Shown here piece after piece: positions 1,183 through 5,441 of a stretch of DNA of 9,877 nucleotides; position 1 is the stretch's first letter, and each line of letters opens with the position of its first letter. Origin of the DNA: Candidatus Atribacteria bacterium (GTDB lineage: Bacteria > Atribacterota > JALVIU01); NCBI GenBank assembly GCA_027028665.1, contig JALVIU010000256.1, forward strand, positions 1-9,877, read 5' to 3'. Under the pieces are notes generated by a model. It was not told the DNA's origin and made no database searches. It saw only the letters and a list, made by a program, of their open reading frames with translations. A program made the translations under genes and the position numbers.

Positions 1183-2931
1183 ATGGAAAAAATTTTAGAA
1201 AGCAAAACCATTAATATTAGGGTAACTGATAAAGGGGAGTTTTTTGTTTACGATAAAATAGGGGATATCGAGTGGAATATGGGAGAAGATTTTGTGATGG
1301 CCCAACTTTTTTTGAAAGATGGAGATATTATTCCCCTTACTAATTTTAATATAAAGGAACTATTTAATACTGCTATCCTTATTTATGAAGATAAAGAAAA
1401 AGATATATCTATAAGGATAAATTTGAGACTTATTCCCCCAGGAGATAAGTTTGATATTGTTATAAATGGAAGAAGTAAAACACCAATAGAGAAATTGGTA
1501 TTTTTAAAGGGCGCTTTTTCTATAGAAGAGGGCTCTGGTGGTTTCTATCTTTTACCTATTGAACTGGGTAAAGTCTTTTCTCCTGATGGATTCGCAGGAT
1601 CAAAAGAGTTTTCTCCTGGGGAACTGAGTATGTTTATGTATGGTATAATAAATGATACTTCCCTCCTTCTTCCTGTATGGGATGATCCTTCTCTTTCTAT
1701 CTCTTTGATGCGAGATAATAATGCCCTTGTAGCAAGTTTTATTACTCCTAAACTCCCCCAGAGGGTTCAATTTAGGATTATACCAGAGGGAGAAGTGGAA
1801 AGCTTAATCCATGAATATAGGGAATATATAAAGAGAAAGGGCTATATATTAGAATGGGAAGAAAAGCTAAAAGGAAGAAGAGAAGAAATTCAGCAGCTAT
1901 TAGTGTCTGGTGTATTTGATTTACAAAAAATAGATGATGAAAATCTATTATCCTTTATGGAACATGCAAGAAGAGATCTTAAAATCTATCATCTTGGCTT
2001 TTCTACGCTAAGATATGAAAAAGATGAAAAAAAAGTGATAGAGAAAGGAAAAGAGTTGGGCTATCCTGTTTTTTCATCAAAAGGTGAAATCTCTATGTAC
2101 TATATGGATACACCACTGGGTGAAAAAAAGATTGAAAGAAATAATGTTATCTTATCTGCCACCCAATTAAAAGAAATATTTTTACCCTGGGTAGATATTT
2201 ATATGGACATTTCTTTTGATTTATCCCCTTCTTTTTATCCTTTATTTAAGATGGTATATGGAGATATAGTAGAGATGCAGGGGAAACCTACAGGGCCCTC
2301 ATCTTTTGATGATTATATGTTGGATTTATTATTTTTAGGCTTTTTCCCCTGGTATCCTGAGTGGCTTTTACCAGAGGGGAATTATTGGAAAAAAGAGGAA
2401 AATGAAGATACCAGGGAGGAATATCTTTCTATGTTTGAAAGAATTCCATTTTTTATGATGGGAGAAGGTGGATGGGGAGAGGATATGCACCCCTTTGATA
2501 TCTTTCTGAAAAATATGGAAGAGATTATACTTCCTTTTAGAGAGCTTATCTTTGGTAAGAGGATTATAAGATTTGAATATCTGGATGATAAAGGAAATGT
2601 AATTTTTGTAGAGTTTGAAAATGGTGTAGAGATTATAGTAAATAAGGATTTGAAAGACTATGAGTGTTTTTCTACTCTCTATGGAAAAACCTTCCTCCCC
2701 CCCTATGGATACATAGTATCATCTGATAGATTCCTTTCATTTCATGCCTATGGGATAAATGACCATAGGGAAAACAAGCCTCTTTTAGTTTCTGTAAGGA
2801 CTCTTGATGGTAAAATCTTTAAAGAGACAACTAAATTAAAGGTTTATCATGCATTTGGTCCTTCTACGTTTAAGTTTATGAGAAAAATTATTGATGTAGG
2901 AGGAGAAAAAATATATACGATAAAGACTTAG
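1183..2931 (+). CDS. Glycoside hydrolase-like protein (GH101/DUF5696-like layout), catalytic status unclear
   Basis: Cytosolic protein of 582 residues with no signal peptide. I chose ATG 1183 over 1171 because GGAG at 1173-1176 is a ribosome binding site 6 nt upstream of 1183, while 1171 has none. Residues 1 to about 210 look like an all-beta, sugar-binding sandwich domain. They are followed by the helix EYREYIKRKGY (near 211-221), typical of the junction into a glycosidase barrel. The middle (about 225-455) carries PLFKMVYGDIV (353-363) and DLLFLGFFPWYPEWLL (381-396), which resemble the PLF-x-VYHD and LLYG-x-P signatures near the end of GH101/DUF5696-type barrels. Residues about 460-500 (RFEYLDDKG, then VEFENGVEIIVNKD) resemble the C-terminal beta domain of these enzymes. 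The barrel part seems short, about 230 residues, and I could not identify a catalytic acid pair. It may be a divergent hydrolase or a binding pseudo-enzyme. The family call rests on motif resemblance only. Confidence 0.5.
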   Translation: MEKILESKTINIRVTDKGEFFVYDKIGDIEWNMGEDFVMAQLFLKDGDIIPLTNFNIKELFNTAILIYEDKEKDISIRINLRLIPPGDKFDIVINGRSKTPIEKLVFLKGAFSIEEGSGGFYLLPIELGKVFSPDGFAGSKEFSPGELSMFMYGIINDTSLLLPVWDDPSLSISLMRDNNALVASFITPKLPQRVQFRIIPEGEVESLIHEYREYIKRKGYILEWEEKLKGRREEIQQLLVSGVFDLQKIDDENLLSFMEHARRDLKIYHLGFSTLRYEKDEKKVIEKGKELGYPVFSSKGEISMYYMDTPLGEKKIERNNVILSATQLKEIFLPWVDIYMDISFDLSPSFYPLFKMVYGDIVEMQGKPTGPSSFDDYMLDLLFLGFFPWYPEWLLPEGNYWKKEENEDTREEYLSMFERIPFFMMGEGGWGEDMHPFDIFLKNMEEIILPFRELIFGKRIIRFEYLDDKGNVIFVEFENGVEIIVNKDLKDYECFSTLYGKTFLPPYGYIVSSDRFLSFHAYGINDHRENKPLLVSVRTLDGKIFKETTKLKVYHAFGPSTFKFMRKIIDVGGEKIYTIKT

Positions 2932-2960
2932 ATTTTATAATTATTTTTATGTAATTTCGT

Positions 2961-3054
2961 TTTTTAGCAATTTTGTAATTGATTTATAAGTGTTTTTTAA
3001 GAATTAAAAAAACTATAAAAAATTATCTAAAACTATTTACAAATTCGCTAAAAA
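2961..3054. repeat. Nested inverted repeats in an AT-rich spacer
   Basis: TTTTTAGC-AAT-TTTGTA (2961-2977) is answered by TACAAA-TTC-GCTAAAAA (3038-3054): 14 of 17 positions pair around a 3x3 internal loop. Nested inside is an 8-bp A/T stem (TTTTTTAA 2993-3000 with TTAAAAAA 3004-3011, loop GAA). Two AAAACTAT copies lie at 3009-3016 and 3029-3036, exactly 20 nt apart. GC over 2941-3060 is about 16% by count. There is no strong intrinsic terminator for the upstream gene. The repeats could be a weak terminator, an operator or AT-rich coincidence. Nothing coding is seen between 2932 and 3090. Confidence 0.45.
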
Positions 3055-3055
3055 G

Positions 3056-3086
3056 TTGTACAATATTTTGTCGTCGAAAATAAAAT
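3056..3086 (+). promoter_or_regulatory. Predicted promoter of the speD-speE operon
   Basis: TTGTAC (3056-3061) and TAAAAT (3081-3086) lie 19 nt apart. The spacing is slightly long, and an overlapping TTATAG hexamer (3087-3092) is an alternative -10. The predicted start falls at about 3091-3094, exactly where the AT-rich spacer ends and the more GC-rich structured leader begins with GAAAGGAG. Confidence 0.4.
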
Positions 3087-3090
3087 TATA

Positions 3091-3252
3091 GAAAGGAGCG
3101 GGATAGCTAAGAAAGAATGAAAAAGAGATTTGAAAGTATTTCTATGTATGGGTTTACTTCCCTTCACATCCTCTGGCTTACCCTCCTTTCATACCTTCTT
3201 GTAAGGATCTCTTATGTTTTTTTACTAAATAACTATGAAAGGGGTGATTACA
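3091..3252 (+). ncRNA. Structured 5' leader of speD, candidate RNA switch
   Basis: About 39% GC over 3091-3210, against about 16% in the preceding 120 nt, which suggests selected structure. Segment A, GAAAGGAG (3091-3098), pairs perfectly with segment B, CTCCTTTC (3183-3190). The helix continues after a bulged C with GG 3100-3101 / CC 3181-3182, then AGCTA 3105-3109 with TGGCT 3174-3178. An internal hairpin is possible: ATGT 3144-3147 with ACAT 3166-3169, and GGG 3150-3152 with CCC 3160-3162. Segment B can also pair with the speD Shine-Dalgarno GAAAGGGG (3237-3244), with one G.U. A weaker hairpin, CATACCTT (3190-3197) with AAGG (3203-3206) and TATG (3213-3216), runs into seven T residues (3217-3223) and could act as an attenuator. 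I do not recognise it as a known SAM or polyamine riboswitch class. The pairings are seen in the sequence; the regulatory role is inference. Confidence 0.5.
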
Positions 3253-3269
3253 ATGAAGCATTTAGGTGA
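3117..3269 (+). CDS. Possible 50-codon leader ORF overlapping the speD start (doubtful)
   Basis: An open frame of 50 codons starts at ATG 3117 with [10 protein letters not shown], has a hydrophobic middle (about 16-38) and ends at TGA 3267-3269, 17 nt inside speD in another frame. An in-frame TAA at 3108-3110 fixes its upstream limit. Against it: no Shine-Dalgarno at a normal distance (GGAG at 3095-3098 is 18 nt away), codons such as ATC, CTC and ACC that neighbouring genes favour less, and overlap with the paired leader RNA. If translated, ribosomes would cross the speD ribosome binding site, so it could modulate speD. I rate a structural RNA as more likely. Confidence 0.2.
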
Positions 3270-3606
3270 ACACATTATACTTGAACTTTGGGGCTGTGAT
3301 CCTCAAGCACTCGACTCTGAAGAACTCGTTACCAAGATGCTCCTGGAAGGAGTTGAGGCTTCAAAAGCTACTTTACTAAAGATTAACATGCACAAGTTTT
3401 CTCCTCAAGGTGTTACCGGTGTTGCTGTACTTGCAGAATCGCATATATCTATACATACATGGCCAGAACATGGCTATGCAGCCCTGGATGTATTCACCTG
3501 TGGTGATGATGTAAGGCCAGGGGATGCAGTGCCTGTTTTTGAGAAATATCTAAAACCTAAACATATAGATATAGTAAATCTTAAGAGAGGAGTAACACCC
3601 AAATGA
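3253..3606 (+). CDS. speD: S-adenosylmethionine decarboxylase proenzyme, class 1B
   Basis: Decarboxylates S-adenosylmethionine to make the aminopropyl donor for polyamine synthesis. It is a pyruvoyl enzyme that cleaves itself between Glu62 and Ser63; Ser63 becomes the pyruvoyl group of the alpha chain. With the start at ATG 3253 the protein has 117 residues and places Ser63 (in AESHIS), His68 (IHTWPE) and Cys83 (FTCGD) at the numbers known for the Thermotoga maritima enzyme. That supports this start over ATG 3235, as does the strong ribosome binding site GAAAGGGGTGAT (3237-3248) directly in front. The short class 1B form works as a dimer. The stop overlaps the speE start by 4 nt (ATGA at 3603-3606), so the two genes are translationally coupled. 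Expression is probably controlled through the structured leader upstream. Confidence 0.95.
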
Positions 3607-4442
3607 CTGAAATATGGTTCACTGAACGTCAAGAGGAACATTCTGGCCTTACTGTACGTGTTAGAGATGTTTTATTCTCTGGTAAATCAAAGTACCAAGA
3701 GATTCAGATCTTGGATACATATTCCCTTGGAAAAGTACTTGTATTAGACAACACATATCAAACCACTGAAAGAGATGAGGCCTATTATCATGAGGCCCTC
3801 GCTCATATCCCCTTATTTACTCATCCAAATCCCCGTCATGTCCTTGTTGTAGGTGGTGGAGATGGAGGCACCGTAAGAGAGGTTTTGAAACACAAATCTG
3901 TGGAGAGTGTGGATCTTGTGGAGATTGATGAAGTTGTAGTGAGAGAGTGCAAAAAGCATATGCCTACATTGAGTAAAGGCTTTTCTGATGAAAGGGTTAG
4001 TGTGATATTTGAGGATGGTGCCAAATATGTAAAAGAAACAAATAAGAAATATGATGTGGTGATAGTGGATTCCCCTGATCCTGTGGGACCTGCTGTGGTC
4101 CTTTTTGAAAAGGAGTTTTATGAAAACATAAAAGGGATACTAAATGATGGGGGACTTATGGTGGAGCAGACAGAATCTCCTCTCTTTAGTAAGGATTTTG
4201 TGATAAATATTAGAAAGACCTTTTCAGAGGTATTCCCTATTGTAAGGCAATATCTTACTGTAGTATATACTTATCCTGGTGCTACATGGTCATTTACAAT
4301 GGGCTCTTTGAAGCATGACCCTCTTAAAGTAGATGAGGAAGAATTAAATAAGAGATTTAAAGGAATGGAAACGAAAATATATTATCCTGGGATTCATAAG
4401 GCCTTTTTTGCATTACCAAGATATATAAAAGAAGAGGGGTAA
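3603..4442 (+). CDS. speE: Spermidine synthase / polyamine aminopropyltransferase
   Basis: Transfers the aminopropyl group from decarboxylated AdoMet to putrescine or a related amine, releasing 5'-methylthioadenosine. The protein is 279 residues, normal for the family. An N-terminal beta domain (about 1-55) leads to the acceptor-site motif ERDEAYYHE (56-64). The Rossmann core has the glycine-rich loop GGGDGGT (84-90), the ribose-binding acidic stretch VEIDE (106-110), EDGAKYV (137-143) and the catalytic-loop DSPDPVGPA (156-164), where Asp156 and Asp159 correspond to the conserved aspartates. The usual family form is DS(T/S)DPxGPA, so Pro158 is a mild variant. Acceptor preference (putrescine, agmatine or a longer polyamine) cannot be read from sequence. 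The start overlaps the speD stop; the stop lies in the palindromic terminator shared with the convergent ParA-like gene. Confidence 0.95.
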
Positions 4443-4457
4443 TTACCCCTCTTCTTT
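4428..4457. terminator. Bidirectional terminator with both stop codons in its centre
   Basis: The arms AAAGAAGAGGGG (4428-4439) and CCCCTCTTCTTT (4446-4457) form a perfect 12-bp stem around TAATTA (4440-4445), which is itself palindromic. TAA 4440-4442 ends speE on the plus strand; the adjacent 4443-4445 is TAA for the minus-strand ParA-like gene. T-rich sequence follows on the plus strand and A/T-rich sequence on the other side. The two coding regions abut with no gap. Confidence 0.85.
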
Positions 4458-5441
4458 ATTTAAGTCATATCCTAACCTCTCCAGTACTTCATTGGTGAAA
4501 TAGAGATAATCTCTATAGCCTGATGAATTCATGTTTTCATATTCAAATATAGTCTTTCTCTCCAGAGGTAATGCCTTTATTCTTGTATTCTTTCTGATTT
4601 TTGTATTAAATACCTTTTCTCCAAATTGATCATTCAAAATTTCTTCTACGATCTTTGTTATCCTTTCTCGTGCATCATACATTGTGATGAGATAGCCAAG
4701 TATCTCTATATCTCTTTGTGTGAGATTTCTTACTTTTTGTATAGACTTCAAAAGCCACTTTATTCCTATGAGCGGAAAGTACTCACATGCCACAGGAACT
4801 ATTATATAGTCTGATGCAGCCATAGCATTTAGCGTGAGAAGCCCGAGATATGGTGCTGTATCTATTATAATGAAATCAAAAAATTCTATTATGGGATTTT
4901 CAAGGGCTGCTATAAGTCTTGATAAGTCTCCATTCATAGTTTGTGCAAGTTCCATATCTACAAGAGATAGATTTTCTCCTGCGGGTGCAATATAAAGATT
5001 GCGTGTGTGAGTTTCTGTAATAATTGTACTTATATCTTCTCTTCCTAATATTACATCAGATAGACTCTTTTCATCATCTTCTAATTCTCTGTATAATGCA
5101 TGTGTAGCATTACACTGTATATCAAGGTCTACAAGGAGTACTTTGTACCCCTTCATGGCCATTCCAGCTCCAAGATTTATTGCACTGGTACTTTTTCCTA
5201 CACCACCCTTTTGATTTGCAAATGTTATAACAGGATGTAGTATTTTTTCCCCTCTTTTTACATCTTCTCTTGCCATCTCTCTTTTTAACCATTCATCCAG
5301 ATCCTTTTTCTTTATATTCCAGTTATTTTTTGTTTTTATAGCTGGAATAAGGCCAATCTTTATATATACCTTTAGTGTATCAGGGGATATATTTAAATAT
5401 TCTGCCCCTTCCTGGAGATTCATCAATTCTTTTCTACTCAT
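4443..5441 (-). CDS. ParA/Soj-family ATPase with N-terminal MerR/Xis-like helix-turn-helix
   Basis: A 332-residue two-domain protein. Residues about 6-52 (MNLQEGAEYLNISPDTL, then IGLIPAIKTKNNWNIKKKDLDEWL) form an excisionase/MerR-type winged helix-turn-helix of the kind that binds short DNA sites. Residues about 70-330 are a ParA-type ATPase. It has a deviant Walker A KGGVGKST (78-85) with the signature lysine, the VDLDIQCNAT switch region (104-113; DLDPQGNAT is commoner) and Walker B IIIDTAP (191-197). VPVACEYFPLIGIKWL (215-230) is typical of chromosome and plasmid ParA. Such proteins dimerise on DNA when bound to ATP and position cargo or DNA. No ParB-like gene or obvious parS repeat is in view. 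The gene follows the isomerase by 4 nt, with its AAGG ribosome binding site inside the isomerase end, so the two are co-transcribed. The HTH fusion suggests site-specific DNA binding or autoregulation, as in P1-type ParA. Its role is unknown. Confidence 0.85.
   Translation of the reverse strand: MSRKELMNLQEGAEYLNISPDTLKVYIKIGLIPAIKTKNNWNIKKKDLDEWLKREMAREDVKRGEKILHPVITFANQKGGVGKSTSAINLGAGMAMKGYKVLLVDLDIQCNATHALYRELEDDEKSLSDVILGREDISTIITETHTRNLYIAPAGENLSLVDMELAQTMNGDLSRLIAALENPIIEFFDFIIIDTAPYLGLLTLNAMAASDYIIVPVACEYFPLIGIKWLLKSIQKVRNLTQRDIEILGYLITMYDARERITKIVEEILNDQFGEKVFNTKIRKNTRIKALPLERKTIFEYENMNSSGYRDYLYFTNEVLERLGYDLNKEEG

Follow-up and report, generated by a model that had tools for sequence, protein, structure and literature searches.

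The leader of the S-adenosylmethionine decarboxylase gene speD in a Candidatus Atribacteria bacterium contains one segment able to pair either with the 5' end of the predicted transcript or with the speD Shine-Dalgarno (SD) sequence, and we put at roughly 45% the probability that this is a real cis-acting leader, controlling translation of speD and speE by hiding the speD SD. The double pairing is confirmed, and is somewhat stronger than a preliminary description of the same DNA had stated; the simple on/off switch that was built upon it is only partly supported, the predicted folding not bearing it out in the form in which it was proposed. In the computed ensembles the leader adopts three mutually dependent foldings, here called P1, AS and LS, of which P1 and LS together are dominant and AS appears on loss of P1. 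The committed step of spermidine synthesis is the one catalyzed by SpeD, for whose gene few RNA-based controls are known in bacteria; if our reading is correct, polyamine control is built here differently from the known spermidine riboswitch, with a start site hidden in two exclusive ways and an overlapping open reading frame (ORF).

The speD locus and its leader

The window, by which we mean the whole stretch of 9,877 nt that was analyzed (contig JALVIU010000256.1 of assembly GCA_027028665.1, forward strand), belongs to a genome represented by a 1.79-Mb bin of 413 contigs that is 90% complete. The nearest genomes available for comparison have only the phylum in common with it. The bin contains no 16S gene, one tRNA was found in the contigs sampled, and no match over the cut-off to reverse gyrase was obtained in the genome. 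On the plus strand, speD occupies positions 3253 to 3606 (Pfam PF02675, AdoMet_dc, E = 3e-41), and its stop codon is overlapped, through the sequence ATGA, by the start of speE (3603–4442, plus strand; PF01564, E = 1.5e-66), which encodes an aminopropyltransferase of the spermine/spermidine synthase type. This is the only aminopropyltransferase found in the 90%-complete genome; two have been reported for Dictyoglomus thermophilum (PMC11107197). Upstream of speD lies a gene for a 586-residue protein (1171–2931) with no Pfam match, and on the minus strand at 4443–5441 a single protein joins a ParA-type ATPase (AAA_31) to an N-terminal excisionase/MerR-like helix-turn-helix (HTH_17). An alternative start for speD at ATG 3235 was ruled out because homologues begin at the residue encoded at 3253, a start from which GAAAGGGG is then normally spaced.

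The gap before speD measures 321 nt and is made up of an AT-rich spacer (2932–3090, 15.7% GC) followed by the leader (3091–3252, 35.8% GC). The contrast with a low-GC spacer, previously put at about 16%, therefore stands as described, but the figure of about 39% given for the leader itself was too high, a value of 40% applying to 3091–3190. A consensus scan yielded two overlapping sigma-70-like promoter candidates on the plus strand (3036–3064 and 3057–3086), with predicted starts near 3071 or 3093; both are of a quality found at chance frequency. The transcript 5' end at 3091 that had been proposed is fitted by the downstream candidate, which scores 9/12 and suits a start near 3091–3093, but the upstream candidate, TTTACA-17-TACAAT, is the better of the two (10/12). 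No intrinsic terminator was found within 2900–3400, despite a U7 tract at 3217–3223.

Pairings of the leader and their predicted folding

Direct reading of the sequence places the three segments of the double pairing exactly where they had been claimed, with GAAAGGAG at 3091–3098, CTCCTTTC at 3183–3190 and GAAAGGGG at 3237–3244, all on the plus strand; the last is part of the speD SD, GAAAGGGGTG (3237–3246), which is recognized by its sequence and its spacing to ATG 3253. The first segment, a spare strong SD word and a candidate anti-anti-SD, forms the 5' strand of P1 (3091–3098/3183–3190), a helix that has, as described, eight perfect Watson-Crick pairs and a flanking extension, the latter consisting of GG/CC and AGCUA/UGGCU. 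P1 closes a 5' folded domain (3091–3190, plus strand; MFE −26.6 kcal/mol, z = −1.70) that may be a sensor domain. The anti-SD strand, CTCCTTTCATA (3183–3193, plus strand), whose first 8 nt double as the 3' strand of P1, pairs with 3234–3244 to form AS. Here the pairing and its one G.U were correctly noted before, but the length of eight pairs was an underestimate, since the helix comprises 11 contiguous pairs. The third structure, the local hairpin LS (3195–3258, plus strand; −14.0 kcal/mol), had been missed. Its strands CUUC/UUGUAA/AUCUCUU pair with AAGGGGU/UUACAA/GAAG, and it hides both the SD and the start codon: AUCUCUU pairs with the SD (AAGGGGU), and UUGUAA and CUUC pair with the start-codon region.

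In the predicted ensemble of the full leader at 37°C, P1 is formed with a probability of 0.98 and LS with 0.90, and AS is near zero. When the RNA is begun at 3099 or 3117, AS rises from 0 to 0.73–0.74 and the SD is again paired, so two of the original proposals, that the pairings are mutually exclusive and that loss of the 5' pairing would let the anti-SD strand hide the SD, agree with the model. The complementary proposal, that pairing with the 5' segment frees speD, does not follow from the model: even in a leader that has P1 in place, LS still pairs the SD, whose unpaired fraction is 0.03 at 37°C. Because LS occludes the SD even in the presence of P1, the original logic is incomplete, and P1 by itself would not suffice to free the SD. 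In the growing transcript P1 appears once position 3190 has been made, about 50 nt ahead of the SD, and LS once 3250–3260 has been made; since P1 forms before the SD exists, the default would be P1 together with a hidden SD. Heating weakens P1, from the value at 37°C to 0.89 at 60°C and 0.61 at 70°C, but with regard to an RNA thermometer the predicted unpaired fraction of the SD is only 0.05 at 60°C and rises no further than 0.11 at 70°C, the energies at these temperatures being rough. Ranked among 134 gene starts from this genome by the share of unpaired bases, the region around the speD start belongs to the lowest 7% at 37°C and the lowest 4% at 65°C, and its opening energy of 10.3 kcal/mol lies in the top 18%; the initiation region as modeled is structured, not extreme.

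The preliminary description envisaged a metabolite riboswitch, in which the 3091–3190 domain would bind spermidine, SAM or a relative and the exchange between P1 and AS would set speD translation. Such an arrangement has the merit that the two helices share 3183–3190 and exclude each other, and the cost of forcing AS falls from 6.4 kcal/mol at 37°C to 1.8 kcal/mol at 70°C, which brings P1 and AS close in energy at high temperature, with both states populated at 70°C (energies far from 37°C are rough). In addition, speD is a sensible target for feedback, and an association of spermidine riboswitches with speE, speB and speD is on record (PMC10853860). However, the SD is hidden by pairing whichever of the two helices is formed; the leader matches no Rfam family, SAM classes included; it is present as a single copy, both in its own genome and across 50 genomes of the phylum; and the 3091–3190 domain folds just slightly better than shuffled sequences, as its z value indicates. 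We thus regard a riboswitch of this kind as unlikely.

The rarity of the pattern was assessed against 1000 shuffled leaders, in which the SD was kept fixed and the upstream part was dinucleotide-shuffled, and against other gene starts in about 255 kb of contigs of the same genome, defined by crude gene calls; all of the rarity statistics are post hoc, having been selected after the pattern was seen. An SD partner of eight pairs alone is found in 18% of shuffled leaders, and the double-partner geometry, in which the SD partner itself has a perfect eight-pair partner upstream, in 0.2%. Among the 149 other gene starts called in the sampled contigs, an SD partner of eight or more pairs was present in 7 and the double geometry in none; 1.3% of these genes reach or surpass the 11 pairs of the speD SD helix. 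The geometry was likewise absent from all 59 leaders taken from speD contigs of other phyla and from viral contigs. The 5' segment had been called in effect a copy of the ribosome binding site, and this is well founded: a count over 510,770 strand-bases of the genome gave 16 copies of GAAAGGAG, 11 of them with a start codon 3–14 nt downstream, so that it is a true SD word in this organism, one that speD alone among 150 genes carries at −180 to −100. On contig C408, the 12-mer GAAAGGAGCGGG directly precedes an ATG. As for stability, the leader folded as a whole has an ordinary energy (z = −1.09; 30 of 200 shuffles as stable), and the AS hairpin (z = −3.57) and LS (z = −2.70; 1 of 200 shuffles as stable), both chosen after the fact, are more stable than their shuffles.

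Alternatively, this could be an ordinary 5' leader without any regulation, in which a purine-rich SD meets a pyrimidine-rich stretch by chance. The unremarkable energy of the whole leader fits such a view, as do the frequency of eight-pair SD partners among shuffled leaders, the opening energy (as high in 18% of gene starts) and the lack of this leader in sister families; by simple arithmetic, a post hoc pattern with a frequency of 0.2% would be expected about three times among roughly 1,800 genes. Yet three rare features coincide in one leader, namely the double partner, a spare SD word and a long ORF, although they are not fully independent, and a leader of 35.8% GC adjoining a spacer of 15.7% is for that reason unlike drifting intergenic DNA. 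We consider chance a possible, if somewhat unlikely, source of the pattern.

The overlapping leader ORF

The ORF list contains a candidate 50-codon hydrophobic leader ORF with an AUG start (3117–3269, plus strand), overlooked in the preliminary description, which spans P1, AS and LS and extends 17 nt into speD in a different frame. ORFs of at least 50 codons arise in 0.2% of shuffled leaders. The peptide consists of ILMFVWY residues to the extent of 52% (26/50), with basic residues at its start and one long hydrophobic stretch, whereas upstream ORFs that occur incidentally at 67 other speD loci reach no more than 44%. One could therefore envision a small gene, encoding a real 50-residue membrane peptide that is translated with speD, with the RNA pairings arising as by-products; the improbable length, the composition of the peptide and the coding-like GC content of the leader would all be in keeping with this. 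However, the codon score of the ORF, about −0.04 to −0.06 per codon, falls within the non-coding range, at the 3rd–4th percentile of real coding windows, the peptide matches nothing in Pfam and lacks a homologue in the phylum, and the AUG has no SD at normal spacing, the sole strong one, GAAAGGAG, being located 18 nt upstream. We hold a small gene of this kind to be very improbable. Initiation at AUA 3103 following GAAAGGAG, which would yield five codons (I-A-K-K-E), was rejected as too unusual.

To return to a cis-acting leader, the reading that we prefer, translation of the ORF was modeled thermodynamically, by folding the leader around a ribosome footprint set at positions along the ORF. 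In these models the SD is exposed ahead of the ribosome only near codons 28–31, where its unpaired fraction at 37°C is 0.32–0.59; with the ribosome at codon 31 it rises from 0.03 to 0.59, P1 is re-formed behind the ribosome (0.93) and AS stays at 0.05. In the reading that we prefer, speD would be translated poorly by default, and its translation would be raised when LS is opened while P1 occupies the anti-SD strand; because P1 keeps that strand busy, AS could not take over. As P1 would have a sensible role in these models, holding the anti-SD strand off while LS is opened, we rank coupling to the leader ORF as the likeliest opener, that is, a ribosome traversing 3117–3269 may open LS in a manner analogous to that of Salmonella speF and orf34. 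The balance could be set by a general stabilization of hairpins by polyamines, or by a metabolite bound by the 3091–3190 domain.

Relatives of the leader and known systems

The absence of a recognizable riboswitch class, already remarked upon, was upheld by an Rfam scan that included the SAM classes and the Dictyoglomi-1 motif. On the leader strand nothing was found at gathering level or at E ≤ 10 other than a chance match to a eukaryotic snoRNA over the speD start; the sole match to a SAM class at E ≤ 10 is a meaningless one on the minus strand, in AT-rich sequence outside the leader. The Dictyoglomi-1 motif (RF01703) was found neither in the window nor in the rest of the genome, the latter search having been run without a positive control, and Rfam likewise gave nothing for 20 loci, the majority of which were speD loci from the phylum. 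DNA searches with the leader in its own genome, and with the leader plus speD in 61 genomes, recovered only the query itself. Similarly, when the P1 domain was turned into a covariance model and run against 50 genomes of the phylum and 40 sources, no second copy was detected. One weak match to this domain, in genome G049 (E = 0.013 per genome), was discarded because the sequence looks protein-coding and a search of 50 genomes should give one such match by chance. The leader word is absent from the viral contigs searched, and a scan of genome contigs for speD gave matches from other phyla only. In sister families speD is present, with leaders that are short and unrelated.

Different structures were observed near the speD start in other lineages. 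In family f5, a strongly conserved hairpin, GCGATATA-loop-TATATCGC, separates the G-rich SD from the speD AUG in all 10 of the upstream regions read (L090, L093, L096, L097, L099, L100, L101, L102, L103 and L105); in proper register, 98.6% of cells pair in nine aligned rows, with one-sided changes only, and those f5 loci that were scanned gave no Rfam match for it. This hairpin may serve as an RNA element drawing the SD and the AUG together, or else as an operator. Structured speD start regions thus recur in the phylum, in unrelated forms. In three speD loci of Candidatus Kryptonia type (L044, L053 and L056), an A/T-rich hairpin directly precedes the SD, upstream of a start at 3001; it is formed around TTTTTTAGA ... 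TCTAAAAAA in L053, and related sequence is present in all three.

The expression platforms of translational riboswitches use anti-SD and anti-anti-SD strands. The speD leader resembles them in that one strand is common to a helix of the aptamer-closing kind and an SD-hiding helix, but it differs in having a third hairpin, LS, which is predicted to keep the SD covered in the presence of the aptamer-like helix as well. The spermidine riboswitch is a variant of SAM-I, and the example that has been studied acts on transcription via a terminator (PMC10853860). Like the control proposed for the present leader, it acts on polyamine genes, speD in some cases, from within the leader (PMC10853860). In contrast to it, the speD leader here has no terminator, and it is unmatched by the covariance models of the SAM-I clan, although Rfam may lack a model for the spermidine variant.

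The nearest parallel in mechanism is the Salmonella speF leader, in which translation of orf34 is reported to help unfold a structure hiding the speF ribosome-binding site (PMC6386406). Both cases involve a polyamine-biosynthesis gene and a long leader that contains a short ORF, a candidate one here, and a structure, here a predicted one, hiding the ribosome-binding site; leader translation can open that structure in Salmonella and may do so here, and the alternative structures depend on the progress of the ribosome in Salmonella as they do in our models (PMC6386406). Unlike in Salmonella, the gene is speD and the organism is a different one, and we claim no sequence relation; the ORF, itself a candidate, overlaps the start of speD and differs in having no consecutive arginine codons.

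Plant SAMDC mRNAs carry a small upstream ORF of about 50-codon size. Polyamine-responsive upstream ORFs of plants are also mentioned in the literature (PMC3426882). It is conceivable, albeit a long shot in our estimation, that the 50-codon overlapping ORF and the three-way RNA fold described here jointly gate translation of SAM decarboxylase, and would thus be a bacterial counterpart of the plant SAMDC upstream ORFs.
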